Below, piece by piece: positions 269-48,922 of a DNA stretch of 64,000 nt (its first letter is position 1; each line of letters begins with the position of its first letter). The position numbers and the translations under genes were made by a program. Under the pieces are notes generated by a model. It was not told the origin of the DNA and searched no databases. It was given only the letters and a program-made list of their open reading frames with translations. This stretch comes from Paragorgia papillata (taxonomy: Eukaryota > Cnidaria > Anthozoa > Scleralcyonacea > Coralliidae), in NCBI GenBank assembly GCA_035771165.1, contig JAWNZC010000338.1, positions 62,001 to 126,000 of the forward strand. The letters run 5' to 3'.

Positions 269-306
269 TAAATAAAAAAAAAATAAAAATAAAAATAAAA
301 ATAAAA
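269..306. repeat. Simple A-rich repeat (TAAAAA)n
   Basis: An A run is followed by several TAAAAA hexamers. The repeat ends exactly where the first 190 bp repeat copy begins, so it may be a tail or boundary of that repeat. It also creates meaningless low-complexity reading frames on both strands. Confidence 0.8.
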
Positions 307-4099: not shown

Positions 4100-4424
4100 T
4101 TCAACTTTTTACTTTTGCGTTTCAACTTTTTATTTTGTCGTTTCAACTTTTTATTTTTATTTTTGCGTTTCAACTTTTTATTTTTAACTTTCAACTTTTT
4201 ACTTTTGCGTTTCAACTTTTTATTTTTGCGTTTCAACTTTTTATTTTGTCGTTTCTACTTTTAATTTTAATTTTTGCATTTCAACTTTTTATTTTTGCGT
4301 TTCAACTTTCAATTTTTATTTTTGAGTTTAAACTTTTTATTTTTGCGTTTCAACTTTTTATTTTTAACTTTCAACTTTTTACTTTTGCGTTTCAACTTTT
4401 AATTTTGTCTTTCAACTTTTTATT

Positions 4425-7400
4425 TTGTCGTTTCAACTTTTAATTTTTATTTTTGCGTTTCAACTTTTTATTTTTGCGTTTCAACTTTTTATTTTTAACT
4501 TTCAACGTTTTATTTTGTCGTTTCAACTTTTTATTTTGTCGTTTCAACTTTTTATTTTGTCGTTTCAACTTTTTATTTTTATTTTTGCGTTTCAACTTTT
4601 TATTTTTAACTTTCAACTTTTTACTTTTGCGTTTCAACTTTTTATTTTTGCGTTTCAACTTTTATTTTTAACTTTCAACTTTTTACTTTTGCGTTTCAAC
4701 TTTTTATTTTTAACTTTCAACTTTTTACTTTTGCGTTTCAACTTTTTATTTTTGCGTTTCAACTTTTTATTTTTAACTTTCAACTTTTTATTTTTGCGTT
4801 TCAACTTTTTATTTTTAACTTTCAACTTTTTACTTTTGCGTTTCAACTTCTTATTTTTGCGTTTCAACTTTTTATTTTTGCGTTTCAACTTTTTATTTTT
4901 GCGTTTCAACTTTTTATTTTTAACTTTCAACTTTTTATTTTTGCGTTTCAACTTTTTATTTTGTCGTTTCAACTTTTTATTTTGTCGTTTCAACTTTTTA
5001 TTTTTAACTTTCAACTTTTTACTTTTGCGTTTCAACTTTTTATTTTTGCGTTTCAACTTTTTATTTTGTCGTTTCAACTTTTTAATTTTGTCTTTCAACT
5101 TTTTATTTTGACGTTTCAACTTTTTATTTTGTCGTTTCAACTTTTAATTTTGTCTTTCAACTTTTTATTTTGTCGTTTCAACTTTTAATTTTTATTTTTG
5201 CGTTTCAACTTTTTATTTTTGCGTTTCAACTTTTAATTTTGTCTTTCAACTTTTTATTTTGTCGTTTCAACTTTTAATTTTTATTTTTGCGTTTCAACTT
5301 TTTATTTTTGCGTTTCAACTTTTTATTTTTAACTTTCAACGTTTTATTTTGTCGTTTCAACTTTTTATTTTGTCGTTTCTACTTTTAATTTTAATTTTTG
5401 CATTTCAACTTTTTATTTTTGCGTTTCAACTTTTTATTTTGTCGTTTCAACTTTTTATTTTGTCGTTTCAACTTTCAATTTTTATTTTTGCGTTTCAACT
5501 TTTTATTTTTGCGTTTCAACTTTTAATTTTGTCTTTCAACTTTTTATTTTGTCGTTTCAACTTTTAATTTTTATTTTTGCGTTTCAACTTTTTATTTTTG
5601 CGTTTCAACTTTTTATTTTGTCGTTTCAACTTTTTATTTTTATTTTTGCGTTTCAACTTTTTATTTTTAACTTTCAACTTTTTACTTTTGCGTTTCAACT
5701 TTTTATTTTTGCGTATTTTTATTTTTAACTTTCAACTTTTTATTTTGTCGTTTCAACTTTTTATTTTGTCGTTTCAACTTTTTATTTTTATTTTTGCGTT
5801 TCAACTTTTTATTTTTAACTTTCAACTTTTTACTTTTGCGTTTCAACTTTTTATTTTTGCGTTTCAACTTTTTATTTTTAACTTTCAACTTTTTACTTTT
5901 GCGTTTCAACTTTTTATTTTTAACTTTCAACTTTTTACTTTTGCGTTTCAACTTTTTATTTTTGCGTTTCAACTTTTTATTTTTGCGTTTCAACTTTTTA
6001 TTTTTAACTTTCAACGTTTTATTTTGTCGTTTCAACTTTTTATTTTGTCGTTTCAACTTTTTATTTTGTCGTTTCAACTTTTTATTTTTATTTTTGCGTT
6101 TCAAGTTTTTATTTTTGCGTTTCAACTTTTAATTTTGTCTTTCAAGTTTTTATTTTGTCGTTTCAACTTTTAATTTTTATTTTTGCGTTTCAACTATTTA
6201 TTTTTGTGTTTCAACTTTTTATTTTTAACTTTCAAATTTTTACTTTTGCGTTTCAACTTTTTATTTTTAACTTTCAAATTTTTACTTTTGCGTTTCAACT
6301 TTTAATTTTGTCTTTCAAGTTTTTATTTTGTCGTTTCAACTTTTAATTTTTATTTTTGCGTTTCAACTATTTATTTTTGTGTTTCAACTTTTTATTTTTA
6401 ACTTTCAAATTTTTACTTTTGCGTTTCAACTTTTTATTTTGTCGTTTCAACTTGTTATTTTGTCATTTCAACTTTTTATTTTGTCGTTTAACTTTTAATT
6501 TTTATTTTTGCGTTTCAACTTTTTACTTTTGCGTTTCAACTTTTTATTTTGTCGTTTCAACTTTTAATTTTTATTTTTGCGTTTCAACTTTTTACTTTTG
6601 CGTTTCAACTTTTTATTTTGTCGTTTCAACTTTTTATTTTTGCGTTTCAACTTTTTATTTTGTCGTTTCAACTTTCAACTTTTTACTTTTGCGTTCAACT
6701 TTTTACTTTTGCGTTTCAACTTTTTATTTTTACGTTTCAACTTTTTATTTTTGTGTTTCAACTTTTTATTTTAAACTTTCAACTTTTTATTTTAAACTTT
6801 CAACTTTTTACTTTTGCGTTTCAACTTTTAATTTTTATTTTTGCGTTTCAACTTTTTATTTTGTCGTTTCAACTTTTTACTTTTGCGTTTCAACTTTTTA
6901 TTTTTGCGTATTTTTATTTTTAACTTTCAACGTTTTATTTTGTCGTTTCAACTTTTTATTTTGTCGTTTCAACTTTTAATTTTGTCTTTCAACTTTTTAT
7001 TTTGTCGTTTCAACTTTTAATTTTTATTTTTGCGTTTCAACTTTTTATTTTTGCGTTTCAACTTTTAATTTTGTCTTTCAACTTTTTATTTTGTCGTTTC
7101 AACTTTTAATTTTTATTTTTGCGTTTCAACTTTTTATTTTTGCGTTTCAACTTTTTATTTTTAACTTTCAACGTTTTATTTTGTCGTTTCAACTTTTTAT
7201 TTTGTCGTTTCTACTTTTAATTTTAATTTTTGCATTTCAACTTTTTATTTTTGCGTTTCAACTTTTTATTTTGTCGTTTCAACTTTTTATTTTGTCGTTT
7301 CAACTTTCAATTTTTATTTTTGCGTTTCAACTTTTTATTTTTGCGTTTCAACTTTTAATTTTGTCTTTCAACTTTTTATTTTGTCGTTTCAACTTTTAAT

Positions 7401-10400
7401 TTTTATTTTTGCGTTTCAACTTTTTATTTTTGCGTTTCAACTTTTTATTTTGTCGTTTCAACTTTTTATTTTTATTTTTGCGTTTCAACTTTTTATTTTT
7501 AACTTTCAACTTTTTACTTTTGCGTTTCAACTTTTTATTTTTGCGTATTTTTATTTTTAACTTTCAACGTTTTATTTTGTCGTTTCAACTTTTTATTTTG
7601 TCGTTTCAACTTTTTATTTTGTCGTTTCAACTTTTTATTTTTATTTTTGCGTTTCAACTTTTTATTTTTAACTTTCAACTTTTTACTTTTGCGTTTCAAC
7701 TTTTTATTTTTGCGTTTCAACTTTTTATTTTTAACTTTCAACGTTTTATTTTGTCGTTTCAACTTTTTATTTTGTCGTTTCAACTTTTTATTTTGTCGTT
7801 TCAACTTTTTATTTTTATTTTTGCGTTTCAAGTTTTTATTTTTGCGTTTCAACTTTTAATTTTGTCTTTCAAGTTTTTATTTTGTCGTTTCAACTTTTAA
7901 TTTTTATTTTTGCGTTTCAACTATTTATTTTTGTGTTTCAACTTTTTATTTTTAACTTTCAAATTTTTACTTTTGCGTTTCAACTTTTTATTTTTAACTT
8001 TCAAATTTTTACTTTTGCGTTTCAACTTTTAATTTTGTCTTTCAAGTTTTTATTTTGTCGTTTCAACTTTTAATTTTTATTTTTGCGTTTCAACTATTTA
8101 TTTTTGTGTTTCAACTTTTTATTTTTAACTTTCAAATTTTTACTTTTGCGTTTCAACTTTTAATTTTGTCTTTCAAGTTTTTATTTTGTCGTTTCAACTT
8201 TTAATTTTTATTTTTGCGTTTCAACTTTTTATTTTTGCGTTTCAACTTTTTATTTTTAACTTTCAACGTTTTATTTTGTCGTTTCAACTTTTTATTTTGT
8301 CGTTTCAACTTTTTATTTTGTCGTTTCAACTTTTTATTTTTATTTTTGCGTTTCAACTTTTTATTTTTAACTTTCAACTTTTTACTTTTGCGTTTCAACT
8401 TTTTATTTTTGCGTTTCAACTTTTATTTTTAACTTTCAACTTTTTACTTTTGCGTTTCAACTTTTTATTTTTAACTTTCAACTTTTTACTTTTGCGTTTC
8501 AACTTTTTATTTTTGCGTTTCAACTTTTTATTTTTAACTTTCAACTTTTTATTTTTGCGTTTCAACTTTTTATTTTTAACTTTCAACTTTTTACTTTTGC
8601 GTTTCAACTTCTTATTTTTGCGTTTCAACTTTTTATTTTTGCGTTTCAACTTTTTATTTTTGCGTTTCAACTTTTTATTTTTAACTTTCAACTTTTTATT
8701 TTTGCGTTTCAACTTTTTATTTTGTCGTTTCAACTTTTTATTTTGTCGTTTCAACTTTTTATTTTTAACTTTCAACTTTTTACTTTTGCGTTTCAACTTT
8801 TTATTTTTGCGTTTCAACTTTTTATTTTGTCGTTTCAACTTTTTAATTTTGTCTTTCAACTTTTTATTTTGACGTTTCAACTTTTTATTTTGTCGTTTCA
8901 ACTTTTAATTTTGTCTTTCAACTTTTTATTTTGTCGTTTCAACTTTTAATTTTTATTTTTGCGTTTCAACTTTTTATTTTTGCGTTTCAACTTTTAATTT
9001 TGTCTTTCAACTTTTTATTTTGTCGTTTCAACTTTTAATTTTTATTTTTGCGTTTCAACTTTTTATTTTTGCGTTTCAACTTTTTATTTTTAACTTTCAA
9101 CGTTTTATTTTGTCGTTTCAACTTTTTATTTTGTCGTTTCTACTTTTAATTTTAATTTTTGCATTTCAACTTTTTATTTTTGCGTTTCAACTTTTTATTT
9201 TGTCGTTTCAACTTTTTATTTTGTCGTTTCAACTTTCAATTTTTATTTTTGCGTTTCAACTTTTTATTTTTGCGTTTCAACTTTTAATTTTGTCTTTCAA
9301 CTTTTTATTTTGTCGTTTCAACTTTTAATTTTTATTTTTGCGTTTCAACTTTTTATTTTTGCGTTTCAACTTTTTATTTTGTCGTTTCAACTTTTTATTT
9401 TTATTTTTGCGTTTCAACTTTTTATTTTTAACTTTCAACTTTTTACTTTTGCGTTTCAACTTTTTATTTTTGCGTATTTTTATTTTTAACTTTCAACTTT
9501 TTATTTTGTCGTTTCAACTTTTTATTTTGTCGTTTCAACTTTTTATTTTTATTTTTGCGTTTCAACTTTTTATTTTTAACTTTCAACTTTTTACTTTTGC
9601 GTTTCAACTTTTTATTTTTGCGTTTCAACTTTTTATTTTTAACTTTCAACTTTTTACTTTTGCGTTTCAACTTTTTATTTTTAACTTTCAACTTTTTACT
9701 TTTGCGTTTCAACTTTTTATTTTTGCGTTTCAACTTTTTATTTTTGCGTTTCAACTTTTTATTTTTAACTTTCAACGTTTTATTTTGTCGTTTCAACTTT
9801 TTATTTTGTCGTTTCAACTTTTTATTTTGTCGTTTCAACTTTTTATTTTTATTTTTGCGTTTCAAGTTTTTATTTTTGCGTTTCAACTTTTAATTTTGTC
9901 TTTCAAGTTTTTATTTTGTCGTTTCAACTTTTAATTTTTATTTTTGCGTTTCAACTATTTATTTTTGTGTTTCAACTTTTTATTTTTAACTTTCAAATTT
10001 TTACTTTTGCGTTTCAACTTTTTATTTTTAACTTTCAAATTTTTACTTTTGCGTTTCAACTTTTAATTTTGTCTTTCAAGTTTTTATTTTGTCGTTTCAA
10101 CTTTTAATTTTTATTTTTGCGTTTCAACTATTTATTTTTGTGTTTCAACTTTTTATTTTTAACTTTCAAATTTTTACTTTTGCGTTTCAACTTTTTATTT
10201 TGTCGTTTCAACTTGTTATTTTGTCATTTCAACTTTTTATTTTGTCGTTTAACTTTTAATTTTTATTTTTGCGTTTCAACTTTTTACTTTTGCGTTTCAA
10301 CTTTTTATTTTGTCGTTTCAACTTTTAATTTTTATTTTTGCGTTTCAACTTTTTACTTTTGCGTTTCAACTTTTTATTTTGTCGTTTCAACTTTTTATTT

Positions 10401-11946
10401 TTGCGTTTCAACTTTTTATTTTGTCGTTTCAACTTTCAACTTTTTACTTTTGCGTTCAACTTTTTACTTTTGCGTTTCAACTTTTTATTTTTACGTTTCA
10501 ACTTTTTATTTTTGTGTTTCAACTTTTTATTTTAAACTTTCAACTTTTTATTTTAAACTTTCAACTTTTTACTTTTGCGTTTCAACTTTTAATTTTTATT
10601 TTTGCGTTTCAACTTTTTATTTTGTCGTTTCAACTTTTTACTTTTGCGTTTCAACTTTTTATTTTTGCGTATTTTTATTTTTAACTTTCAACGTTTTATT
10701 TTGTCGTTTCAACTTTTTATTTTGTCGTTTCAACTTTTAATTTTGTCTTTCAACTTTTTATTTTGTCGTTTCAACTTTTAATTTTTATTTTTGCGTTTCA
10801 ACTTTTTATTTTTGCGTTTCAACTTTTAATTTTGTCTTTCAACTTTTTATTTTGTCGTTTCAACTTTTAATTTTTATTTTTGCGTTTCAACTTTTTATTT
10901 TTGCGTTTCAACTTTTTATTTTTAACTTTCAACGTTTTATTTTGTCGTTTCAACTTTTTATTTTGTCGTTTCTACTTTTAATTTTAATTTTTGCATTTCA
11001 ACTTTTTATTTTTGCGTTTCAACTTTTTATTTTGTCGTTTCAACTTTTTATTTTGTCGTTTCAACTTTCAATTTTTATTTTTGCGTTTCAACTTTTTATT
11101 TTTGCGTTTCAACTTTTAATTTTGTCTTTCAACTTTTTATTTTGTCGTTTCAACTTTTAATTTTTATTTTTGCGTTTCAACTTTTTATTTTTGCGTTTCA
11201 ACTTTTTATTTTGTCGTTTCAACTTTTTATTTTTATTTTTGCGTTTCAACTTTTTATTTTTAACTTTCAACTTTTTACTTTTGCGTTTCAACTTTTTATT
11301 TTTGCGTATTTTTATTTTTAACTTTCAACGTTTTATTTTGTCGTTTCAACTTTTTATTTTGTCGTTTCAACTTTTTATTTTGTCGTTTCAACTTTTTATT
11401 TTTATTTTTGCGTTTCAACTTTTTATTTTTAACTTTCAACTTTTTACTTTTGCGTTTCAACTTTTTATTTTTGCGTTTCAACTTTTTATTTTTAACTTTC
11501 AACGTTTTATTTTGTCGTTTCAACTTTTTATTTTGTCGTTTCAACTTTTTATTTTGTCGTTTCAACTTTTTATTTTTATTTTTGCGTTTCAAGTTTTTAT
11601 TTTTGCGTTTCAACTTTTAATTTTGTCTTTCAAGTTTTTATTTTGTCGTTTCAACTTTTAATTTTTATTTTTGCGTTTCAACTATTTATTTTTGTGTTTC
11701 AACTTTTTATTTTTAACTTTCAAATTTTTACTTTTGCGTTTCAACTTTTTATTTTTAACTTTCAAATTTTTACTTTTGCGTTTCAACTTTTAATTTTGTC
11801 TTTCAAGTTTTTATTTTGTCGTTTCAACTTTTAATTTTTATTTTTGCGTTTCAACTATTTATTTTTGTGTTTCAACTTTTTATTTTTAACTTTCAAATTT
11901 TTACTTTTGCGTTTCAACTTTTAATTTTGTCTTTCAAGTTTTTATT
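4425..11946. repeat. 3,761 bp higher-order repeat, two tandem copies
   Basis: Landmarks at 4425, 5259, 5577, 6155, 6356, 7091, 7409 and 7882 recur at 8186, 9020, 9338, 9916, 10117, 10852, 11170 and 11643, all shifted by exactly 3,761 bp, with identical translations. The copies are therefore 4425-8185 and 8186-11946. A nested, older 1,832 bp repetition links 5259 to 7091 and 5577 to 7409. The zero-indel match implies a very recent duplication or strong homogenisation. Confidence 0.9.
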
Positions 11947-12660
11947 TTGTCGTTTCAACTTTTAATTTTTATTTTTGCGTTTCAACTTTTTACTTTTGCG
12001 TTTCAACTTTTTATTTTTGCGTTTCAACTTTTTATTTTTAACTTTCAACTTTTTACTTTTGCGTTTCAACTTTTTATTTTTAACTTTCAACTTTTTACTT
12101 TTGCGTTTCAACTTTTTATTTTTGCGTTTCAACTTTTTATTTTTGCGTTTCAACTTTTTATTTTTAACTTTCAACGTTTTATTTTGTCGTTTCAACTTTT
12201 TATTTTGTCGTTTCAACTTTTTATTTTGTCGTTTCAACTTTTTATTTTTATTTTTGCGTTTCAAGTTTTTATTTTTGCGTTTCAACTTTTAATTTTGTCT
12301 TTCAAGTTTTTATTTTGTCGTTTCAACTTTTAATTTTTATTTTTGCGTTTCAACTATTTATTTTTGTGTTTCAACTTTTTATTTTTAACTTTCAAATTTT
12401 TACTTTTGCGTTTCAACTTTTTATTTTTAACTTTCAAATTTTTACTTTTGCGTTTCAACTTTTAATTTTGTCTTTCAAGTTTTTATTTTGTCGTTTCAAC
12501 TTTTAATTTTTATTTTTGCGTTTCAACTATTTATTTTTGTGTTTCAACTTTTTATTTTTAACTTTCAAATTTTTACTTTTGCGTTTCAACTTTTTATTTT
12601 TAACTTTCAAATTTTTACTTTTGCGTTTCAACTTTTAATTTTGTCTTTCAAGTTTTTATT

Positions 12661-13934
12661 TTGTCGTTTCAACTTTTAATTTTTATTTTTGCGTTTCAAC
12701 TATTTATTTTTGTGTTTCAACTTTTTATTTTTAACTTTCAAATTTTTACTTTTGCGTTTCAACTTTTTATTTTGTCGTTTCAACTTGTTATTTTGTCATT
12801 TCAACTTTTTATTTTGTCGTTTCAACTTTTAATTTTTATTTTTGCGTTTCAACTTTTTATTTTGTCGTTTAACTTTTAATTTTTATTTTTGCGTTTCAAC
12901 TTTTTACTTTTGCGTTTCAACTTTTTATTTTGTCGTTTCAACTTTTAATTTTTATTTTTGCGTTTCAACTTTTTATTTTTAACTTTCAACTTTTTACTTT
13001 TGCGTTTCAACTTTTTATTTTTAACTTTCAACTTTTTACTTTTGCGTTTCAACTTTTTATTTTTGCGTTTCAACTTTTTATTTTTGCGTTTCAACTTTTT
13101 ATTTTTAACTTTCAACGTTTTATTTTGTCGTTTCAACTTTTTATTTTGTCGTTTCAACTTTTTATTTTGTCGTTTCAACTTTTTATTTTTATTTTTGCGT
13201 TTCAAGTTTTTATTTTTGTGTTTCAACTTTTTATTTTTAACTTTCAAATTTTTACTTTTGCGTTTCAACTTTTAATTTTGTCTTTCAAGTTTTTATTTTG
13301 TCGTTTCAACTTTTAATTTTTATTTTTGCGTTTCAACTATTTATTTTTGTGTTTCAACTTTTTATTTTTAACTTTCAAATTTTTACTTTTGCGTTTCAAC
13401 TTTTTATTTTGTCGTTTCAACTTGTTATTTTGTCATTTCAACTTTTTATTTTGTCGTTTCAACTTTTAATTTTTATTTTTGCGTTTCAACTTTTTATTTT
13501 GTCGTTTAACTTTTAATTTTTATTTTTGCGTTTCAACTTTTTACTTTTGCGTTTCAACTTTTTATTTTGTCGTTTCAACTTTTAATTTTTATTTTTGCGT
13601 TTCAACTTTTTATTTTTAACTTTCAACTTTTTACTTTTGCGTTTCAACTTTTTATTTTTAACTTTCAACTTTTTACTTTTGCGTTTCAACTTTTTATTTT
13701 TGCGTTTCAACTTTTTATTTTTGCGTTTCAACTTTTTATTTTTAACTTTCAACGTTTTATTTTGTCGTTTCAACTTTTTATTTTGTCGTTTCAACTTTTT
13801 ATTTTGTCGTTTCAACTTTTTATTTTTATTTTTGCGTTTCAAGTTTTTATTTTTGTGTTTCAACTTTTAATTTTGTCTTTCAAGTTTTTATTTTGTCGTT
13901 TCAACTTTTAATTTTTATTTTTGCGTTTCAACTA
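12661..13934. repeat. 637 bp higher-order repeat, two tandem copies
   Basis: Landmarks at 12661 and 12930 recur at 13298 and 13567 with the same 72-residue and nearly the same 128/114-residue frames. The second copy lacks one internal sub-block near its end. Confidence 0.8.
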
Positions 13935-14808
13935 TTTATTTTTGTGTTTCAACTTTTTATTTTTAACTTTCAAATTTTTACTTTTGCGTTTCAACTTTTT
14001 ATTTTGTCGTTTCAACTTTTTATTTTGTCATTTCAACTTTTTATTTTGTCGTTTCAACTTTTAATTTTTATTTTTGCGTTTCAACTTTTTATTTTGTCGT
14101 TTAACTTTTAATTTTTATTTTTGCGTTTCAACTTTTTACTTTTGCGTTTCAACTTTTTATTTTGTCGTTTCAACTTTTAATTTTTATTTTTGCGTTTCAA
14201 CTTTTTACTTTTGCGTTTCAACTTTTTATTTTGTCGTTTCAACTTTTTATTTTTGCGTTTCAACTTTTTATTTTGTCGTTTCAACTTTCAACTTTTTACT
14301 TTTGCGTTCAACTTTTTACTTTTGCGTTTCAACTTTTTATTTTTACGTTTCAACTTTTTATTTTTGTGTTTCAACTTTTTATTTTAAACTTTCAACTTTT
14401 TATTTTAAACTTTCAACTTTTTACTTTTGCGTTTCAACTTTTAATTTTTATTTTTGCGTTTCAACTTTTTATTTTGTCTTTTCAACTTTTTACTTTTGCG
14501 TTTCAACTTTTTATTTTCTCTTTTGAACTTTTAATTTTTATTTTTTCGTTTCAACTTTTTACTTTTGCGTTCAACTTTTTATTTTGTCATTTCAACTTTT
14601 AATTTTTATTTTTGCGTTTCAACTTTTTACTTTTGCGTTTCAACTTTTTATTTTGTCGTTTCAACTTTTAATTTTTTTTTTTCGTTTCAACTTTTTACTT
14701 TTGCGTTCAACTTTTTATTTTGTCATTTCAACTTTTTATTTTCTCTTTTGAACTTTTAATTTTTATTTTTTCGTTTCAACTTTTTACTTTTGCGTTCAAC
14801 TTTTTATT

Positions 14809-16550
14809 TTGTCATTTCAACTTTTAATTTTTATTTTTGCGTTTCAACTTTTTACTTTTGCGTTTCAACTTTTTATTTTGTCGTTTCAACTTTTAATTTT
14901 TTTTTTTCGTTTCAACTTTTTACTTTTGCGTTCAACTTTTTATTTTGTCATTTCAACTTTTTATTTTTGCGTTTCAACTTTTTACTTTGTCGTTTCAACT
15001 TTTAATTTTTATTTTTGCGTTTCAACTTTTTACTTTTGCGTTTCAACTTTTATTTTGTCGTTTCAACTTTTAATTTTTATTTTTGCGTTTCAACTTTTTA
15101 CTTTTGCGTTTCAACTTTTATTTTGTCGTTTCAACTTTTAATTTTTATTTTTGCCTTTCATCTTTTTACTTTTGCTTTAAATTTTTATTTTTGCGTTTCA
15201 ACTTTTTATTTTGTCATTTCAACTTTTTATTTTGTCGTTTCAACTTTTAATTTTTATTTTTGCGTTTCAACTTTTTACTTTTGCGTTTTAACTTTTTATT
15301 TTGTCGTTTCAACTTTTTATTTTTGCGTTCAACTTTTTACTTTTGCGTTTCAACTTTTTATTTTTACATTTCAACTTTTTATTTTTGTGTTTCAACTTTT
15401 TATTTTAAACTTTCAACTTTTTATTTTAAACTTTCAACTTTTTACTTTTGCGTTTCAACTTTTAATTTTTATTTTTGCGTTTCAACTTTTTATTTTGTCG
15501 TTTCAACTTTTAATTTTTATTTTTGCATTTCAACTTTTTATTTTGTCGTTTCAACTTTTAATTTTTACTTTTGCGTTTCAACTTTTTATTTTCTCTTTTG
15601 AACTTTTAATTTTTATTTTTTCGTTTCAACTTTTTACTTTTGCGTTCAACTTTTTATTTTTGCGTTTCAACTTTTTATTTTGTCATTTCAACTTTTAATT
15701 TTTATTTTTGCGTTTCAACTTTTTACTTTTGCGTTTCAACTTTTTATTTTGTCGTTTCAACTTTTAATTTTTTTTTTTCGTTTCAACTTTTTACTTTTGC
15801 GTTCAACTTTTTATTTTGTCATTTCAACTTTTTATTTTTGCGTTTCAACTTTTTATTTTGTCGTTTCAACTTTTAATTTTTATTTTTGCGTTTCAACTTT
15901 TTACTTTTGCGTTTCAACTTTTATTTTGTCGTTTCAACTTTTAATTTTTATTTTTGCGTTTCAACTTTTTACTTTTGCGTTTCAACTTTTATTTTGTCGT
16001 TTCAACTTTTAATTTTTATTTTTGCCTTTCATCTTTTTACTTTTGCTTTAAATTTTTATTTTTGCGTTTCAACTTTTTATTTTGTCGTTTCAACTTTTAA
16101 TTTTTATTCTTGCGTTTCAACTTTTTATTTTTGCGTTTCAACTTTTTATTTTTGCGTTTCAACTTTTTATTTTGTCATTTCAACTTTTTATTTTTGCGTT
16201 TCAACTTTTTATTTTGTCGTTTCAACTTTTAATTTTTATTTTTGCGTTTCAACTTTTTACTTTTGCGTTTCAACTTTTATTTTGTCGTTTCAACTTTTAA
16301 TTTTTATTTTTGCGTTTCAACTTTTTATTTTTGCGTTTCAACTTTTTATTTTGTCGTTTCAACTTTTAATTTTTAACTTTCAACTTTTTACTTTTGCGTT
16401 TCAACTTTTTATTTTGTCGTTTCAACTTTTTATTTTTGCGTTTCAACTTTTTATTTTTGCGTTTCAACTTTTTATTTTTGCGTTTCAACTTTTTATTTTT
16501 GCGTTTCAACTTTTTATTTTTAACTTTCAACGTTTTACTTTTGCGTTTCA
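14809..16550. repeat. 871 bp higher-order repeat, two tandem copies
   Basis: Landmarks at 14809 and 15015 recur at 15680 and 15886. The match includes shared oddities such as TTTGCCTTTCATC and TTTGCTTTAAATTTT, which rules out chance similarity of simple units. It weakens in the second half. Confidence 0.75.
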
Positions 16551-17330
16551 ACTTTTTATTTTGTCGTTTCAACTTTTTACTTTTGCGTTTCAATTTTTTA
16601 TTTTTATTTTTGCGTTTCAACTTTTTATTTTTGCGTTTCAACTTTTTATTTTGTCGTTTCAACTTTTAATTTTTATTTTTGCGTTTCAACTTTTTACTTT
16701 TGCGTTTCAACTTTTATTTTGTCGTTTCAACTTTTAATTTTTATTTTTGCGTTTCAACTTTTTACTTTTGCTTTAAATTTTTATTTTTGCGTTTCAACTT
16801 TTTATTTTGTCGTTTCAACTTTTAATTTTTATTCTTGCGTTTCAACTTTTTACTTTTGCGTTTCAACTTTTATTTTGTCGTTTCAACTTTTCATTTTTAT
16901 TTTTGCGTTTCAACTTTTTACTTTTGCTTTAAATTTTTATTTTTGCGTTTCAACTTTTTATTTTGTCGTTTCAACTTTTAATTTTTAACTTTCAACTTTT
17001 TACTTTTGCGTTTCAACTTTTTATTTTGTCGTTTCAACTTTTTATTTTTGAAACGCAAAAATTAAAATTAAAAGTTGAAACGACAAAATAAAAAGTTGAA
17101 ACGACAAAATAAAAAGTTGAAACGCAAAAATAAAAATTAAAAGTTGAAACGACAAAATAAAAAGTTGAAAGACAAAATTAAAAGTTGAAACGCAAAAATA
17201 AAAAGTTGAAACGCAAAAGTAAAAAGTTGAAAGTTTAAAAATAAAAAGTTTAAACGCAAAAATAAAAAGTTGAAACGCAAAAATAAAAATTAAAAGTTGA
17301 AACGACAAAATAAAAAGTTGAAAGACAAAA

Positions 17331-28900: not shown

Positions 28901-29299
28901 AAAGTTGAAAGTTAAAAATAAAAAGTTGAAACGCAAAAATAAAAAGTTGAAACGCAAAAATAAAAAGTTGAAACGCAAAAATAAAAAGTTGAAACGCAAA
29001 AATAAAAAGTTGAAACGCAAAAATAAAAAGTTGAAACGCAAAAGTAAAAAGTTGAAAGTTAAAAATAAAAAGTTGAAACGCAAAAATTAAAATTAAAAGT
29101 TGAAACGACAAAATAAAAAGTTGAAACGACAAAATAAAAAGTTGAAACGCAAAAATAAAAATAAAAAATTGAAACGCAAAAGTAAAAAGTTGAAACAACA
29201 AAATAAAAAGTTGAAACGCAAAAATTAAAATTAAAAGTTGAAACGACAAAATAAAAAGTTGAAACGACAAAATAAAAAGTTGAAACGCAAAAATAAAAA

Positions 29300-36900: not shown

Positions 36901-39900
36901 CGCAAAAATAAAAAGTTGAAACGCAAAAATAAAAAGTTGAAACGCAAAAGTAAAAAGTTGAAATGCAAAAATTAAAATTAAAAGTAGAAACGACAAAATA
37001 AAAAGTTGAAACGCAAAAATAAAAAGTTCAAAGTTAAAAATAAAAAGTTGAAACGCAAAAGTAAAAAGTTGAAATGCAAAAATTAAAATTAAAAGTAGAA
37101 AAGACAAAATAAAAAGTTGAAACGACAAAATAAAAAGTTGAAACGCAAAAATAAAAATAAGAAGTTGAAACGCAAAAGTCAGAAGTTGAAAGTTAAAAAT
37201 AAAAAGTTGAAACCCAAAAATAAAAAGTTGAAACGCAAAAGTAAAAAGTTCAAAGTTAAAAGTAAAAAGTTGAAACGCAAAAGTAAAAAGTTGTAAAGTT
37301 AAAAATGAAAAGTTGAAACGCAAAAATAAAAAGTTGAAACGCAAAAATAAAAAGTTGAAACGCAAAAGTAAAAAGTTGAAATGCAAAAATTAAAATTAAA
37401 AGTAGAAACGACAAAATAAAAAGTTGAAACGCAAAAATAAAAATAAAAAATTGAAACCCAAAAGTAAAAAGTTCAAAGTTAAAAATAAAAAGTTGAAACG
37501 CAAAAGTAAAAAGTTGAAAGTTAAAAATAAAAAGTTGAAACGCAAAAGTAAAAAGTTGAAATGCAAAAATTAAAATTAAAAAGAAAAATAAAAAGTTGAA
37601 ACGCAAAAGTAAAAAGTTGAAATGCAAAAATTAAAATTAAAAGTAGAAAAGACAAAATAAAAAGTTGAAACGACAAAATAAAAAGTTGAAACGCAAAAAT
37701 AAAAATAAAAAGTTGAAACGACAAAATAAAAAGTTGAAACGACAAAATAAAAAGTTGAAACGACAAAATAAAAAGTTGAAACGACAAAATAAAAAGTTGA
37801 AACGCAAAAATTAAAAGTTGAAACGTCAAAATTAAAAGTTGAAACGACAAAATAAAAAGTTGAAACGACAAAATAAAAAGTTGAAACGACAAAATAAAAA
37901 GTTGAAATGCAAAAATAAAAATTAAAAGTAGAAACGACAAAATAAAAAGTTGAAGCGCAAAAATAAAAAGTTGAAACGCAAAAGTAAAAAGTTGAAAGTT
38001 TAAAATAAAAAGTTGAAACACAAAAAGAAAAAGTTGAAACGCAAAAATAAAAATTAAAAGTTGAAACGACAAAATAAAAAGTTGAAACGACAAAATAAGA
38101 AGTTGAAACGACAAAATAAAAAGTTGAAAGACAAAATTAAAAGTTGAAACGCAAAAATAAAAAGTTGAAACGCAAAAGTAAAAAGTTGAAAGTTAAAAAT
38201 AAAAAGTTTAAACGCAAAAATAAAAAGTTTAAACGCAAAAGTAAAAAGTTGAAAGTTAAAAATAAAAATTAAAAGTTGAAACGACAAAATAAAAAGTTGA
38301 AACGCAAAAATAAAAAGTTGAAACGCAAAAATAAAAAGTTGAAACGCAAAGATAAAAATTAAAAGTTGAAACGCAAAAATAAAAAGTTGAAACGCAAAAA
38401 TAAAAAGTTGAAACGCAAAAGTAAAAAGTTGAAAGTTAAAAATAAAAAGTTGAAACGCAAAAATTAAAATTAAAAGTTGAAACGACAAAATAAAAAGTTG
38501 AAACGACAAAATAAAAAGTTGAAACGCAAAAATAAAAATAAAAAATTGAAACGCAAAAGTAAAAAGTTGAAACAACAAAATAAAAAGTTGAAACGCAAAA
38601 ATTAAAATTAAAAGTTGAAACGACAAAATAAAAAGTTGAAACGACAAAATAAAAAGTTGAAACGCAAAAATAAAAATTAAAAGTTGAAACGACAAAATAA
38701 AAAGTTGAAAGACAAAATTAAAAGTTGAAACGCAAAAATAAAAAGTTGAAACGCAAAAGTAAAAAGTTGAAAGTTTAAAAATAAAAAGTTTAAACGCAAA
38801 AATAAAAAGTTTAAACGCAAAAGTAAAAAGTTGAAAGTTAAAAATAAAAAGTTAAACGCAAAAATTAAAAGTTGAAACGACAAAATAAAAAGTTGAAACG
38901 CAAAAATAAAAAGTTGAAATGCAAAAATTAAAATTAAAAGTAGAAACGACAAAATAAAAAGTTGAAACGCAAAAATAAAAAGTTGAAACGACAAAATAAA
39001 AAGTTAAACGCAAAAATAAAAAGTTTAAACGCAAAAATAAAAATTAAAAGTTGAAACGACAAAATAAAAAGTTGAAACGCAAAAATAAAAAGTTGAAATG
39101 CAAAAATTAAAATTAAAAGTTGAAACGACAAAATAAAAAGTTGAAACGCAAAAATAAAAAGTTGAAACGACAAAATAAAAAGTTGAAACGCAAAAATAAA
39201 AAGTTGAAACGCAAAAATAAAAAGTTGAAACGCAAAAATAAAAATTAAAAGTTGAAACGCAAAAAATAAAAAGTTGAAACGCAAAAATAAAAATTAAAAG
39301 TTGAAACGACAAAATAAAAAGTTGAAAGACAAAATAAAAAGTTGAAACGCAAAAATAAAAAGTTGAAACGCAAAAGTAAAAAGTTGAAAGTTAAAAATAA
39401 AAAGTTAAACGCAAAAATAAAAAGTTTAAACGCAAAAATAAAAATTAAAAGTTGAAACGACAAAATAAAAAGTTGAAACGACAAAATAAAAAGTTGAAAC
39501 GCAAAAATAAAAATAAAAAATTGAAACGCAAAAGTAAAAAGTTGAAACGACAAATAAAAAGTTGAAACGCAAAAATTAAAATTAAAGTTCAAACGACAAA
39601 ATAAAAAGTTGAAACGACAAAATAAAAAGTTGAAACGCAAAAATAAAAAGTTTGAAACGACAAAAAATAAAAAGTTGAAACGACAAAATAAAAAGTTGAA
39701 ACGCAAAAATAAAAAGTTGAAACGCAAAGATAAAATTAAAAGTTGAAACGCAAAATAAAAAGTTGAAACGCAAAAATAAAAATAAAAAATTGAAACGCAA
39801 AAGTAAAAAAAAGTTGAAACGACAAAATAAAAAGTTGAAACGCAAAAGTAAAACGTTGAAAGTTAAAAATAAAAAGTTGAAACGCAAAAATAAAAAGTTG

Positions 39901-42900
39901 AAACGCAAAAATAAAAAGTTGAAACGCAAAATAAAAAGTTGAAACGCAAAAATAAAAAGTTGAAACGCAAAGATAAAAATTAAAAGTTGAAACGCAAAAA
40001 TAAAAAGTTGAAACGCAAAAATAAAAAGTTGAAACGCAAAAGTAAAAAGTTGAAAGTTAAAAATAAAAAGTTGAAACGCAAAAATTAAAATTAAAAGTTG
40101 AAACGACAAAATAAAAAGTTGAAACGACAAAATAAAAATTAAAATTTGAAACAACAAAATTAAAATTTGAAAGGACAAAATAAAAAGTTGAAACGACAAA
40201 ATTAAAATTAAAAGTTGAAACGACAAAATAAAAAGTTGAAACGTCAAAATTAAAAGTTGAAACGACAAAATAAAAAGTTGAAACGACAAAATAAAAAGTT
40301 GAAAATAAAAAGTTGAAACGCAAAAATAAAAAATAAAAGTTGAAACGACAAAATAAAAAGTTGAAACGCAAAAATTAAAATTAAAAGTTGAAACGACAAA
40401 ATAAAAAGTTGAAACGTCAAAATTAAAAGTTGAAACGACAAAATAAAAAGTTGAAACGCAAAAATAAAAAATAAAAGTTGAAACGACAAAATAAAAAGTT
40501 GAAACGCAAAAATTAAAGTTAAAAGTTGAAACGACAAAATAAAAAGTTGAAACGACAAAATAAAAAGTTGAAAGTCAAAATAAAAAGTTGAAACGACAAA
40601 ATAAAAAGTTGAAACGCAAAAATTAAAATAAAAAGTGGAAAGTCAAAATAAAAAGTTGAAAACGACAAAATAAAAAGTTGAAACGCAAAAATTAAAATTA
40701 AAAGTTGAAACGACAAAATAAAAAGTTGAAACGACAAAATAAAAAGTTGAAACGACAAAAAAAAAGTTGAAACGCAAAAATTAAAATTAAAAGTTGAAAC
40801 GACAAAATAAAAAGTTGAAACGACAAAATAAAAAGTTGAAACGCAAAAATAAAAATTAAAAGTTGAAACGACAAAATAAAAAGTTGAAAGACAAAATTAA
40901 AAGTTGAAACGCAAAAATAAAAAGTTGAAACGCAAAAGTAAAAAGTTGAAAGTTTAAAAATAAAAAGTTTAAACGCAAAAATAAAAAGTTTAAACGCAAA
41001 AGTAAAAAGTTGAAAGTTAAAAATAAAAAGTTAAACGCAAAAATAAAAAGTTTAAACGCAAAAATAAAAATTAAAAGTTGAAACGACAAAATAAAAAGTT
41101 GAAACGCAAAAATAAAAAGTTGAAATGCAAAAATTAAAATTAAAAGTAGAAACGACAAAATAAAAAGTTGAAACGCAAAAATAAAAAGTTGAAACGACAA
41201 AATAAAAAGTTGAAACGCAAAAATAAAAAGTTGAAACGCAAAAATAAAAAGTTGAAACGCAAAGATAAAAATTAAAAGTTGAAACGCAAAAATAAAAAGT
41301 TGAAACGCAAAAATAAAAATTAAAAGTTGAAACGACAAAATAAAAAGTTGAAAGACAAAATTAAAAGTTGAAACGCAAAAATAAAAAGTTGAAACGCAAA
41401 AGTAAAAAGTTGAAAGTTAAAAATAAAAAGTTTAAACGCAAAAATAAAAAGTTTAAACGCAAAAGTAAAAAGTTGAAAGTTAAAAATAAAAAGTTAAACG
41501 CAAAAATAAAAAGTTTAAACGCAAAAATAAAAATTAAAAGTTGAAACGACAAAATAAAAAGTTGAAACGCAAAAATAAAAAGTTGAAATGCAAAAATTAA
41601 AATTAAAAGTAGAAACGACAAAATAAAAAGTTGAAACGCAAAAATAAAAAGTTGAAACGACAAAATAAAAAGTTGAAACGCAAAAATAAAAAGTTGAAAC
41701 GCAAAAATAAAAAGTTGAAACGCAAAGATAAAAATTAAAAGTTGAAACGCAAAAATAAAAAGTTGAAACGCAAAAATAAAAATTAAAAGTTGAAACGACA
41801 AAATAAAAAGTTGAAATGCAAAAATAAAAATTAAAAGTAGAAACGACAAAATAAAAAGTTGAAACGCAAAAATAAAAAGTTGAAATGCAAAAATTAAAAT
41901 TAAAAGTAGAAACGACAAAATAAAAAGTGGAAACGACAAAATAAAAAGTTGAAACGCAAAAATAAAAATAAAAAATTGAAACGCAAAAGTAAAAAGTTGA
42001 AACGACAAAATAAAAAGTTGAAACGCAAAAGTAAAACGTTGAAAGTTAAAAATAAAAAGTTGAAACGCAAAAATAAAAAGTTGAAACGCAAAAATAAAAA
42101 GTTGAAACGCAAAAAATAAAAAGTTGAAACGCAAAAATAAAAAGTTGAAACGCAAAAATAAAAAGTTGAAACGCAAAAGTAAAAAGTTGAAAGTTAAAAA
42201 TAAAAAGTTGAAACGCAAAAATTAAAATTAAAAGTTGAAACGACAAAATAAAAAGTTGAAACGACAAAATAAAAAGTTGAAACGCAAAAATAAAAATAAA
42301 AAATTGAAACGCAAAAGTAAAAAGTTGAAACAACAAAATAAAAAGTTGAAACGCAAAAATTAAAATTAAAAGTTGAAACGACAAAATAAAAAGTTGAAAC
42401 GACAAAATAAAAAGTTGAAACGCAAAAATAAAAATTAAAAGTTGAAACGACAAAATAAAAAGTTGAAAGACAAAATTAAAAGTTGAAACGCAAAAATAAA
42501 AAGTTGAAACGCAAAAGTAAAAAGTTGAAAGTTTAAAAATAAAAAGTTTAAACGCAAAAATAAAAAGTTTAAACGCAAAAGTAAAAAGTTGAAAGTTAAA
42601 AATAAAAAGTTAAACGCAAAAATTAAAAGTTGAAACGACAAAATAAAAAGTTGAAACGCAAAAATAAAAAGTTGAAACGCAAAAATAAAAAGTTGAAACG
42701 CAAAGATAAAAATTAAAAGTTGAAACGCAAAAATAAAAAGTTGAAACGCAAAAATAAAAAGTTGAAACGCAAAAGTAAAAAGTTGAAAGTTAAAAATAAA
42801 AAGTTGAAACGCAAAAATAAAAATTAAAAGTTGAAACGACAAAATAAAAAGTTGAAACGACAAAATAAAAAGTTGAAACGCAAAAATAAAAATTAAAAGT

Positions 42901-43580
42901 TGAAACGACAAAATAAAAAGTTGAAACGACAAAATAAAAAGTTGAAACGCAAAAATAAAAATTAAAAGTTGAAACGACAAAATAAAAAGTTGAAACGACA
43001 AAATAAAAAGTTGAAACGACAAAATAAAAAGTTGAAACGCAAAAGTAAAAAGTTGAAAGTTAAAAATAAAAAGTTTAAACGCAAAAATAAAAAGTTGAAA
43101 CGCAAAAGTAAAAAGTTGAAAGTTAAAAATAAAAAGTTGAAACGCAAAAATAAAAATTAAAAAGTTGAAACGACAAAATAAAAAGTTGAAACGACAAAAT
43201 AAAAAGTTGAAACGCAAAAGTAAAAAGTGAAACGCAAAAATAAGAAGTTGAAACGCAAAAGTCAGAAATTGAAAGTTAAAAATAAAAAGTTGAAACGCAA
43301 AAATAAAAAGTTGAAACGCAAAAGTAAAAAGTTGAAACGCAAAAATAAGAAGTTGAAACGCAAAAGTCAGAAGTTGAAAGTTAAAAATAAAAAGTTGAAA
43401 CCCAAAAATAAAAAGTTGAAACGCAAAAGTAAAAAGTTCAAAGTTAAAAGTAAAAAGTTGAAACGCAAAAGTAAAAAGTTGAAAGTTAAAAATGAAAAGT
43501 TGAAACGCAAAAATAAAAAGTTGAAACGCAAAAATAAAAAGTTGAAACGCAAAAATAAAAAGTTGAAATGCAAAAATTAA
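33917..43580. repeat. ~6.6 kb higher-order repeat
   Basis: Landmarks at 33917, 34253, 34758, 35832, 36622 and 36762 recur at 40519, 40856, 41361, 42435, 43227 and 43367, with shifts of 6,602 to 6,605 bp. Matching continues left with a changed shift (32162 to 38677, 6,515 bp). The right-hand copy carries single-base homopolymer indels near 39.2-40.7 kb and at 42.1 kb that the left copy lacks. Confidence 0.82.
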
Positions 43581-46500
43581 AATTAAAAGTAGAAACGACA
43601 AAATAAAAAGTTGAAACGCAAAAATAAAAAGTTCAAGTTGAAACGCAAAAGTAAAAAGTTGAAATGCAAAAATTAAAATTAAAAGTAGAAAAGACAAAAT
43701 AAAAAGTTGAAACGACAAAATAAAAAGTTGAAACGCAAAAATAAAAATAAGAAGTTGAAACGCAAAAGTAAAAAGTTGAAAGTTAAAAATAAAAAGTTGA
43801 AACCCAAAAATAAAAAGTTGAAACGCAAAAGTAAAAAGTTCAAAGTTAAAAATAAAAAGTTGAAACGCAAAAGTAAAAAGTTGAAAGTTAAAAATGAAAA
43901 GTTGAAACGCAAAAATAAAAAGTTGAAACGCAAAAATAAAAAGTTGAAACGCAAAAATAAAAAGTTGAAACGCAAAAATAAAAAGTTGAAACGCAAAATA
44001 AAAAGTTGAAACGCAAAAGTAAAAAGTTGAAAGTTAAAAATAAAAAGTTGAAACGCAAAAGAAAATTAAAAGTTGAAACGACAAAATAAAAAGTTGAAAC
44101 GACAAAATAAAAAGTTGAAACGCAAAAATAAAAAGTTGAAACGCAAAAGTAAAAAGTTGAAACGTCAAAATAAAAAGTTGAAACGCAAAAATAAAAATTA
44201 AAAGTTGAAACGACAAAATAAAAAGTTGAAACGACAAAATAAAAAGTTGAAACGCAAAAATAAAAATTAAAAGTTGAAACGACAAAATAAAAAGTTGAAA
44301 CGACAAAATAAAAAGTTGAAACGCAAAAATAAAAAGTTGAAACGACAAAATAAAAAGTTGAAACGCAAAAATAAAAAGTTGAAACAAAATAAAAAGTTGA
44401 AACGCAAAAATAAAAAGTTGAAACGTAAAAATAAAAAGTTGAAAGTTAAAATAAAAAGTTGAAACGACAAAATAAAAAGTTGAAACGCAAAAATAAAAAT
44501 TAAAAGTTGAAACGACAAAATAAAAAGTTGAAACGACAAAATAAAAAGTTGAAACGCAAAAATAAAAATTAAAAGTTGAAACGACAAAATAAAAAGTTGA
44601 AAGACAAAATTAAAAGTTGAAACGCAAAAATAAAAAGTTGAAACGCAAAAGTAAAAAGTTGAAAGTTAAAAATAAAAAGTTGAAACGCAAAAGTAAAAAG
44701 TTGAAACTTAAAAATAAAAAGTTGAAACGCAAAAATAAAAATAAAAAGTTGAAACAAAAAAATAAAAAGTTGAAACGACAAAATAAAAAGTTGAAACGCA
44801 AAAATAAAAAGTGAAACGCAAAAATAAAAAGTTGAAACGCAAAAGTAAAAAATTGAAAGTTAAAAATAAAAAGTTGAAACGCAAAAATAAAAAAAAACGC
44901 AAAAGTAAAAAGTTGAAACGCAAAAATAAGAAGTTGAAACGCAAAAGTCAGAAGTTGAAAGTTAAAAATAAAAAGTTGAAACCCAAAAATAAAAAGTTGA
45001 AACGCAAAAGTAAAAAGTTCAAAGTTAAAAGTAAAAAGTTGAAACGCAAAAGTAAAAAGTTGAAAGTTAAAAATGAAAAGTTGAAACGCAAAAATAAAAA
45101 GTTGAAACGCAAAAATAAAAAGTTGAAACGCAAAAGTAAAAAGTTGAAATGCAAAAATTAAAATTAAAAGTAGAAACGACAAAATAAAAAGTTGAAACGC
45201 AAAAATAAAAAGTTCAAAGTTAAAAATAAAAAGTTGAAACGCAAAAGTAAAAAGTTGAAATGCAAAAATTAAAATTAAAAGTAGAAAAGACAAAATAAAA
45301 AGTTGAAACGACAAAATAAAAAGTTGAAACGCAAAAATAAAAATAAGAAGTTGAAACGCAAAAGTCAGAAGTTGAAAGTTAAAAATAAAAAGTTGAAACC
45401 CAAAAATAAAAAGTTGAAACGCAAAAGTAAAAAGTTCAAAGTTAAAAGTAAAAAGTTGAAACGCAAAAGTAAAAAGTTGTAAAGTTAAAAATGAAAAGTT
45501 GAAACGCAAAAATAAAAAGTTGAAACGCAAAAATAAAAAGTTGAAACGCAAAAATAAAAAGTTGAAACGCAAAAGTAAAAAGTTGAAATGCAAAAATTAA
45601 AATTAAAAGTAGAAACGACAAAATAAAAAGTTGAAACGCAAAAATAAAAATAAAAAATTGAAACCCAAAAGTAAAAAGTTCAAAGTTAAAAATAAAAAGT
45701 TGAAACGCAAAAGTAAAAAGTTGAAAGTTAAAAATAAAAAGTTGAAACGCAAAAGTAAAAAGTTGAAATGCAAAAATTAAAATTAAAAGTAGAAAAGACA
45801 AAATAAAAAGTTGAAACGACAAAATAAAAAGTTGAAACGCAAAAATAAAAATAAAAAGTTGAAACGACAAAATAAAAAGTTGAAACGACAAAATAAAAAG
45901 TTGAAACGACAAAATAAAAAGTTGAAACGACAAAATAAAAAGTTGAAACGCAAAAATTAAAAGTTGAAACGTCAAAATTAAAAGTTGAAACGACAAAATA
46001 AAAAGTTGAAACGACAAAATAAAAAGTTGAAACGACAAAATAAAAAGTTGAAATGCAAAAATAAAAATTAAAAGTAGAAACGACAAAATAAAAAGTTGAA
46101 GCGCAAAAATAAAAAGTTGAAACGCAAAAGTAAAAAGTTGAAAGTTTAAAATAAAAAGTTGAAACACAAAAATAAAAAGTTGAAACGCAAAAATAAAAAT
46201 TAAAAGTTGAAACGACAAAATAAAAAGTTGAAACGACAAAATAAAAAGTTGAAACGACAAAATAAAAAGTTGAAACGACAAAATAAAAAGTTGAAACGCA
46301 AAAATAAAAAGTTGAAACGCAAAAGTAAAAAGTTGAAAGTTAAAAATAAAAAGTTGAAACGCAAAAATAAAAAGTTTAAACGCAAAAGTAAAAAGTTGAA
46401 AGTTAAAAATAAAAATTAAAAGTTGAAACGACAAAATAAAAAGTTGAAACGCAAAAATAAAAAGTTGAAACGCAAAAATAAAAAGTTGAAACGCAAAGAT

Positions 46501-48809
46501 AAAAATTAAAAGTTGAAACGCAAAAATAAAAAGTTGAAACGCAAAAATAAAAAGTTGAAACGCAAAAGTAAAAAGTTGAAAGTTAAAAATAAAAAGTTGA
46601 AACGCAAAAATAAAAATAAAAAGTTGAAACGACAAAATAAAAAGTTGAAACGACAAAATAAAAAGTTGAAACGCAAAAGTAAAAAGTGAAACGCAAAAAT
46701 AAGAAGTTGAAACGCAAAAGTCAGAAATTGAAAGTTAAAAATAAAAAGTTGAAACGCAAAAATAAAAATTAAAAGTTGAAACGACAAAATAAAAAGTTGA
46801 AAGACAAAATTAAAAGTTGAAACGCAAAAATAAAAAGTTGAAACGCAAAAGTAAAAAGTTGAAAGTTAAAAATAAAAAGTTTAAACGCAAAAATAAAAAG
46901 TTTAAACGCAAAAGTAAAAAGTTGAAAGTTAAAAATAAAAATTAAAAGTTGAAACGACAAAATAAAAAGTTGAAACGCAAAAATAAAAAGTTGAAACGCA
47001 AAAATAAAAAGTTGAAACGCAAAGATAAAAATTAAAAGTTGAAACGCAAAAATAAAAAGTTGAAACGCAAAAATAAAAAGTTGAAACGCAAAAGTAAAAA
47101 GTTGAAAGTTAAAAATAAAAAGTTGAAACGCAAAAATAAAAATAAAAAGTTGAAACGACAAAATAAAAAGTTGAAACGACAAAATAAAAAGTTGAAACGC
47201 AAAAGTAAAAAGTGAAACGCAAAAATAAGAAGTTGAAACGCAAAAGTCAGAAATTGAAAGTTAAAAATAAAAAGTTGAAACGCAAAAATAAAAAGTTGAA
47301 ACGCAAAAGTAAAAAGTTGAAACGCAAAAATAAGAAGTTGAAACGCAAAAGTCAGAAGTTGAAAGTTAAAAATAAAAAGTTGAAACCCAAAAATAAAAAG
47401 TTGAAACGCAAAAGTAAAAAGTTCAAAGTTAAAAGTAAAAAGTTGAAACGCAAAAGTAAAAAGTTGAAAGTTAAAAATGAAAAGTTGAAACGCAAAAATA
47501 AAAAGTTGAAACGCAAAAATAAAAAGTTGAAACGCAAAAGTAAAAAGTTGAAATGCAAAAATTAAAATTAAAAGTAGAAACGACAAAATAAAAAGTTGAA
47601 ACGCAAAAATAAAAAGTTCAAAGTTAAAAATAAAAAGTTGAAACGCAAAAGTAAAAAGTTGAAAGTTAAAAATAAAAAGTTGAAACGCAAAAGTAAAAAG
47701 TTGAAATGCAAAAATTAAAATTAAAAGTAGAAAAGACAAAATAAAAAGTTGAAACGACAAAATAAAAAGTTGAAACGCAAAAATAAAAATAAAAAGTTGA
47801 AACGACAAAATAAAAAGTTGAAACGACAAAATAAAAAGTTGAAACGACAAAATAAAAAGTTGAAACGCAAAAATTAAAAGTTGAAACGTCAAAATAAAAA
47901 GTTGAAACGACAAAATAAAAAGTTGAAACGCAAAAATAAAAAGTTGAAACGCAAAAATAAAAATTAAAAGCTGAAACGCAAAAATAAAAAGTTGAAACGC
48001 AAAAATAAAAAGTTGAAACGCAAAAGTAAAAAGTTGAAATGCAAAAATTAAAATTAAAAGTAGAAACGACAAAATAAAATGTTGAAACGACAAAATTAAA
48101 AGTTGAAACGACAAAATAAAATGTTGAAACGACAAAATTAAAAGTTGAAACGACAAAATAAAAAGTTGAAACGACAAAATAAAAAGTTGAAACGACAAAA
48201 TAAAAAGTTGAAATGCAAAAATAAAAATTAAAAGTTGAAACGACAAAATAAAAAGCTGAAACATAAAAATAAAAAGTTGAAACGACAAAATAAAAAGTTG
48301 AAACGACAAAATAAAAAGTTGAAACGCAAAAATGAAAAGTTGAAACGCAAAAATAAAAATTAAAACTTGAAACGACAAAATAAAAAGTTGAAACGCAAAA
48401 GTAAAAAGTTGAAAGTTAAAAATAAAAAGTTGAAACACAAAAATAAAAAGTTGAAACGCAAAAATAAAAATTAAAAGTTGAAACGACAAAATAAAAAGTT
48501 GAAACGACAAAATAAAAAGTTGAAACGACAAAATAAAAAGTTGAAACGCAAAAATAAAAAGTTAAACGCAAAAATAAAAATTAAAAGTTGAAACGACAAA
48601 ATAAAAAGTTGAAACGTCAAAATAAAAAGTTGAAACGCAAAAATAAAAAGTTGAAACGCAAAAATAAAAAGTTGAAACGACAAAATAAAAAGTTGAAACG
48701 CAAAAATTAAAGTTGAAACGTCAAAATAAAAAGTTGAAACGTCAAAATAAAAAGTTGAAACGTCAAAATAAAAAGTTGAAACGCAAAAATAAAAAGTTGA
48801 AACGCAAAA

Positions 48810-48922
48810 TGACTGTGTATTTTGTTTTTGATTCGCTTTGTTGTTTTTGATTCAGTTATACAACAACAAAAATACACTGTATATACAGTAATATCGTGTC
48901 TAATGCCTTTGCTTTTTCTTAG
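48810..48922 (+). other. Short unique spacer with splice acceptor
   Basis: This 113 bp piece separates the minisatellite from the first recognisable exon. It ends in a pyrimidine-rich stretch (CTTTGCTTTTTCTTAG) that makes a good acceptor at 48921-48922. There is no in-frame start codon that would make it a first exon, so the intron continues leftwards into the array. Confidence 0.65.

Follow-up and report, generated by a model that had tools for sequence, protein, structure and literature searches.

An array of 44.7 kb built from a unit of 21 bp raises the question of where such a sequence comes from and how it attained its length. The array lies in a 64,000-nucleotide stretch of the Paragorgia papillata genome (hereafter the window; C338:62001-126000 in a genome of 617.9 Mb and 473 contigs), on an unplaced contig of 2.42 Mb whose start is 66 kb away, and its reality is confirmed. 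Our data suggest that a family of DNA transposons probably carries the 21-bp repeat as its subterminal tandem repeat, and that the window array is a grown descendant of such an element, devoid of its ends. We assign the repeat to a foldback-like transposon with IS3EU-type ends because it adjoins a terminal inverted repeat (TIR) whose convergent pairs are in part flanked by target-site duplications (TSDs). The interpretation given in a first-pass annotation of the window is partly supported by this result, which places the unit in a role, i.e. that of a subterminal repeat of a TIR transposon, that the annotation had not foreseen.

As assembled, the block spans positions 4100-48810, in which Tandem Repeats Finder (TRF) reports two 21-bp arrays, 4100-17050 and 17064-48810. 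These are opposed, head-to-head halves of 13.0 and 31.8 kb, because the strand switches near 17050, as is apparent from the sequence and from the GC skew, which is about -0.28 to the left of this position and about +0.26 to its right:

4100..17050, forward strand: left half, unit TTTCAACTTTTTATTTTTGCG and variants reading 5' to 3', T-rich strand up (TRF, unit splitting)
17040..17070, no strand: head-to-head junction, where ...CAACTTTTTATTTTTG meets AAACGCAAAAATT... (strand switch in sequence and skew)
17053..48810, reverse strand: right half, unit of the left half on the other strand, A-rich strand up (TRF, unit splitting)

Microhomology at the junction amounts, by eye, to at most about 3 bp. 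The array had been annotated as uninterrupted, which holds in that the largest gap between unit anchors is at most 47 bp in both halves, and therefore no foreign block lies within it, but the strand switch had been missed. Likewise, the earlier figure of about 2,100 copies for a single 21-bp unit comes close to the 1,970 units (575 + 1,395) cut out with anchors of at most one mismatch (main units TTTCAACTTTTTATTTTTGCG and TTTCAACTTTTTATTTTGTCG), but is a simplification, as 21 bp is the length of 1,022 of them (267 + 755), the remainder measuring mainly 27, 28, 20 and 14 bp. The A+T content of the array is about 78%, and in five order-1 Markov versions of it TRF found no array longer than 130 bp.

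The unit can be followed across the assembly, as the first-pass annotation had proposed: one exact 21-mer has 2,912 genome copies (1,841 on the forward and 1,071 on the reverse strand; reversed control, none), of which the window holds 320. Extrapolation from the density of this 21-mer in the window gives roughly 0.4 Mb of repeat genome-wide. With this copy number and several large blocks, the annotation's idea of a satellite seed was close. Outside the window the following blocks were delimited, two of them on one 3.2 Mb contig:

C381:1405036-1445594: C381a array, 40.6 kb, read whole
C381:2314275 to about 2364650: C381b array, about 50 kb, read whole save 2350001-2360300, where it was sampled at two 300-bp points
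C473:4735614-4736176 and 4764961-4770334: C473 array, split by an insertion

Among the matches listed, a further array on C29 has exact units at 19.6-43.4 kb and again from 160 kb, and one unit is present on C14. Within C381b, an irregular poly-T-rich patch at C381:2331143-2331246 possibly represents low-quality consensus.

It is the edges of these arrays that connect the repeat with transposition. The left edges of both C381 arrays open with 29 identical bases, while the flanks outside differ; this sequence is the TIR, TATGGAAGCCCAGGAGGCTCACAACAAC, and the 21-bp unit stands directly inside it. The first 23 bases of the TIR occur at 19 exact places in the genome (reversed control, none), and 18 of these continue directly into several 21-bp units, some of them degenerate, the remaining one (C87:3346603) diverging after about one unit (all by eye). 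Allowing up to three mismatches, the full 29-mer has 45 places (22 forward, 23 reverse; control, none), 30 of which form 15 convergent pairs with spacings from 0.66 to 68.8 kb. TSDs were checked in 12 of these 15 pairs, with C77, C120 and C376 left out. When the ends are set at TATGG...CCATA, seven of the 12 have an exact 6-bp TSD: AGTTAG (44.7 kb, C11), CTGAAG (18.7 kb), TATAGG (9.9 kb, C87), TATATC (68.8 kb, C381b), GTTTAG (8.5 kb, C470), GAGTTG (0.7 kb) and GGATTC (4.0 kb, C349). On C470, where the left end repeats its first 15 bases, the TSD was counted from the outer copy. The chance of at least seven exact TSDs in 12 is about 4e-23 for a fixed end point, a figure to be read in the light of TATGG having been fixed as the element end only after the TIR places had been seen. 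Pairs with such exact duplications are transposon insertions.

The internal organization of these elements also bears on that of the window. The 68.8-kb element on C381 (TSD TATATC) contains the C381b array, from 2314275 to about 2364650. At the other end of the size range, a palindromic 4.0-kb element on C349 has a foldback architecture: it runs from a T-array through a short A-array, a middle and a short T-array to an A-array, with the outer units T-oriented at the left and A-oriented at the right and with arms that are 92.7% identical over 1,766 columns (slice displaced by 20 bases). Long inverted repeats of tandem repeats are likewise found in the C367 elements and at the ends of the C11 element, where the matches listed include a forward unit copy at the left end, seven reverse copies at the right and one forward copy further in. 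As each C349 arm holds its own small T-to-A switch, that of the window may stem either from a single arm or from an entire element.

How the arrays reached their size is recorded in the copies that they contain. Within the window array, an exact-repeat scan found the following blocks:

4417..11992, forward strand: block of 3,815 bp duplicated exactly in tandem, lag 3,761 bp
17106..22251, reverse strand: block of 2,351 bp duplicated exactly, lag 2,795 bp
34057..42016, reverse strand: block of 1,357 bp duplicated exactly, lag 6,603 bp

Exact within-array copies of at least 200 bp account for 83% (left) and 85% (right) of the two halves of the window array, for 86% of C381a, for 75% of C381b (35.7-kb part) and for 86% of C473b; the 581-bp C473a has none. 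Exact sharing of at least 200 bp between the independent loci compared is 0%, and array growth is therefore local; the longest exact stretch common to the window array and another locus measures 146 bp. The two window halves are closer to one another than to any other locus compared, with a longest common exact stretch of 229 bp, and since they share no more than this, they seem to have grown separately since facing each other. A perfect best ungapped match was obtained for 57% of the 500-bp segments of the left half and 33% of those of the right half. Most likely, the arrays grow in place after insertion by copying kilobase-sized pieces of themselves.

At its right border, the window array meets a gene:

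48811..48922, forward strand: 3' remainder of an intron, interrupted by the array border
48923..49015, forward strand: exon AKVNVARTSLETARVNRGKAPEAKCPGTEIQ of a multi-exon gene (splice sites by eye, translation)
49101..49518, forward strand: following exon of this gene, without a Pfam match

The flank here is 98% identical to C3:784305-785044 (735 bp) and 99% identical to C87:540470-540616 (147 bp), and at both loci the intron is intact, the copies continuing upstream, by eye, with further intron sequence and an exon in the place that the array takes in the window. With this upstream part present in both copies, the right border of the array is a breakpoint within the intron. The upstream part has no match in the window or at the other loci compared, among them the 10 kb that precede the window, and the 5' part of the window's gene copy does not reappear beyond the array. 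Judging by sequence similarity, the gene has near-identical copies, or haplotypes, elsewhere in the genome; a public protein, P0053, matches the two-exon query with 95% identity over 80% of its length. No alignment was found between the borders of the window array and the sequence flanking the other arrays. At a distance of kilobases from the arrays, dispersed repeats are shared between loci, up to 845 bp long (right side of C473 against the right of the window). Concerning the variant TTTTGTCG/TTTTGACG, the outermost 500 bp contain TTTTGACG in 4 of 20 cases for the right half and in 0 of 2 for the left half, and with such counts its distribution carries little weight; TTTTGACG is also seen near several TIRs.

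A transposon origin of the window array has to be weighed against several observations that speak against it. The window and the sequence adjoining it (10 kb on the left, 20 kb on the right) contain no TIR, the best match having 11 mismatches in 28 positions; the stretches read beside the C473 array have none either, C381a carries one on its left side only, and C29 and C14 do not appear among the 45 TIR places. Moreover, 15 of these 45 places are unpaired, and five of the 12 pairs checked lack an exact TSD. Among these five, the two flanks on C122 are mutual reverse complements, those on C322 are alike in five of six bases, C367a and C367b have a 6-base repeat, ACACGA, one base off the TIR, and on C320 the right end starts with CATGG, which was not parsed by the script, and the left flank equals that of C367. 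As flanks are common on one side or the other, C367a, C367b, C320, C77, C120 and C376 may be copies of one insertion. Finally, no transposase of the family was identified, with no transposase-directed search behind this, and the exon-like pieces present in each C349 arm, when joined into a 72-residue fragment, gave no Pfam match above the cut-off and a single, unnamed database match (E 3e-6, 63 aa).

The lack of TIRs at the window and C473 arrays and among the places listed on C29, together with a homogenization that is only local, is what would be expected of an ordinary satellite family, spread by recombination or circular DNA and merely picked up by a transposon, in which case the window array would at no time have belonged to an element. 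We regard this as possible, if rather unlikely, as the repeat abuts the TIR in 18 of its 19 exact copies, in the 0.7-kb and the giant elements alike, and so counts as a regular component, not as an occasional passenger. That the length of 44.7 kb or the head-to-head junction is an assembly artefact appears improbable. Exact duplicates of several kilobases, such as that of 3,815 bp, do strain assembly, as the irregular poly-T patch at C381 2331143 illustrates, but C381 carries two long arrays, of 40.6 and about 50 kb, each with its own variants, so that a one-off length artefact is unlikely, and T-to-A junctions recur in short, easily assembled elements (C349, C367). A block selected by the host, be it centromere-like, a boundary or an origin, would fit an array that is AT-rich, long and homogenized, but we give it very little credence: two such arrays sit on a single contig, an intron borders the window array and intrinsic curvature is absent. 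Nor did any observation favour the chromatin boundary, fragile site or centromere-like block that the first-pass annotation had listed as options. A host function is neither needed nor indicated, and the array behaves as transposon-seeded satellite DNA.

Two further candidate properties of the array were rejected. Bent DNA did not emerge from a wedge-angle calculation (means of 3.0 and 3.4 degrees per turn for the two halves versus 4.4-4.8 for Markov and 24-26 for phased A-tract controls), and a coding function fails as an explanation, the frame being broken by unit lengths of 20, 28 and 14. The 28-base unit pattern was found in 0 viral contigs and 0 prokaryote genomes (records of the window's own genome were possibly left out), and four strings of exact unit letters had no occurrence in the literature searched.

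In the reading that we favour, an element of the family is built as TIR (TATGGAAGCCCAGGAGGCTCACAACAAC), T-oriented 21-bp repeats, middle, A-oriented repeats and TIR, with a 6-bp target duplication, and was moved, as we infer from its ends, by an IS3EU-type transposase. After insertion, the repeats would expand in place as blocks from hundreds to thousands of bases long are duplicated, perhaps through unequal exchange or break-induced copying, and at some sites attain 40-50 kb. The window block would have kept the T-left/A-right order of the element while losing both terminal repeats and the middle, and at least its right border would be a secondary breakpoint, inside the intron. Most likely, it stems from a decayed, rearranged element whose ends were lost in the rearrangement.

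Other tandem repeats are found in similar surroundings. The C11 element (C11:1116097-1160788, 44.7 kb, TSD AGTTAG) seems to be filled with another tandem repeat; by eye, one motif occurs in four of five 100-bp samples taken 8 kb apart, and another motif links the fifth. At C381:1445594, the 21-bp C381a array gives way directly to another long array, whose 15-bp unit, TGGATTTTTGATGGA, is accompanied by a recurring spacer and which extends to about 1480300 (read to 1450000 and sampled beyond). The 28.8-kb insertion that splits the C473 array (C473:4736178-4764958) is bordered by TTAA at either end (by eye). Its ends, AGTGGCAGTACGA, are inverted, and it contains 16.7 kb of a tandemly arrayed 17-bp unit, TTGCATCTTGTCTTGTC; three of its frames gave no Pfam match. 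It is a second, different transposon-like element with a giant minisatellite. Ten 2-kb samples from other contigs contained no kilobase minisatellite, but one 857-bp array (120-bp unit) and several arrays below 100 bp. Giant TIR transposons of 45-69 kb with intact TSDs could act as satellite incubators that transpose with whole arrays, this and another family carrying several unrelated tandem repeats, so that satellites would spread by cut-and-paste rather than by recombination; we put this forward as a tentative and, on balance, unlikely extension.

Among the remaining features of the window, a multi-exon gene, or more than one, occupies positions 48923-52984, with no Pfam match. Public sources contain 52 relatives of one exon at E <= 0.01, and a stretch of 94 bases from another exon recurs at 22 further genome places (75-77%), so that this gene may itself be mobile. 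Eight window frames had no Pfam match, and the window contains no RNA gene with an Rfam match at gathering score and no tRNA. To the left of the array, 190-bp tandem repeats form two nearby clusters (window 306-2059; L026:4738-5914), and at positions 56751-57192 a 218-bp sequence is present twice in tandem (about 98% identity), related sequence also occurring to the right of the window.

The origin of new satellites is a standing question, for which the evidence is often a mere resemblance between satellite and transposon. Here, one genome seems to hold a whole series, from 0.7-kb elements with few units through 4-kb and 45-69-kb elements with exact TSDs to arrays without ends. With no exact sharing of 200 bp between arrays and kilobase duplicates within them, growth in place could become datable and measurable locus by locus.

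Among known systems, long and internally repetitive inverted repeats as seen here are also a feature of FB and TU elements and, reportedly, of Galileo of Drosophila, which is said to belong to the P superfamily, unlike the present elements; we know of no arrays of tens of kilobases in elements of this type. Dispersed tandem repeats carried by mobile elements are reportedly found in the Helentrons of Crassostrea gigas, but Helitrons lack the inverted-repeat ends and target duplications that the present elements have. A limited look at the literature found no report of an IS3EU- or foldback-type element combined with such giant minisatellite arrays. By their long, locally homogenized tandem arrays at several loci, the sequences also have the hallmarks of a satellite or minisatellite.

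IS3EU/GingerRoot elements have TA..TA termini and usually a 6-bp TSD (PMC10045372), and the present elements, with a TIR that begins with TATGG and ends with CCATA and with exact 6-bp TSDs in seven of the 12 pairs checked, of 15 known, resemble them in both respects. We tentatively place the family there by its ends, which the window array itself lacks, and the part of the source available to us makes no mention of subterminal minisatellites. The closest and direct precedent is Tetris/TIR-220 of Drosophila virilis, in which tandem repeats of foldback TIRs have been amplified into satellite-like arrays of up to 66 copies (PMC4079207). Here, too, the elements are foldback-like, with inverted repeats holding internal tandem repeats that became satellite-like arrays; likewise, some of the Tetris repeats adjoin other sequence and lack the flanking, outer domain, and no transposase was found for Tetris (PMC4079207). 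In contrast, the Tetris unit is about 220 bp long, ten times the 21 bp found here, its arrays of up to 66 copies correspond by multiplication to about 14 kb as opposed to 40-50 kb, its amplification is tied to beta-heterochromatin (PMC4079207), and its TSDs of 8-10 bp as well as its ends differ from the 6-bp TSDs and the ends of the present family, which point to another superfamily. What the present family adds beyond Tetris is one giant array that still lies inside an element with an exact target duplication.

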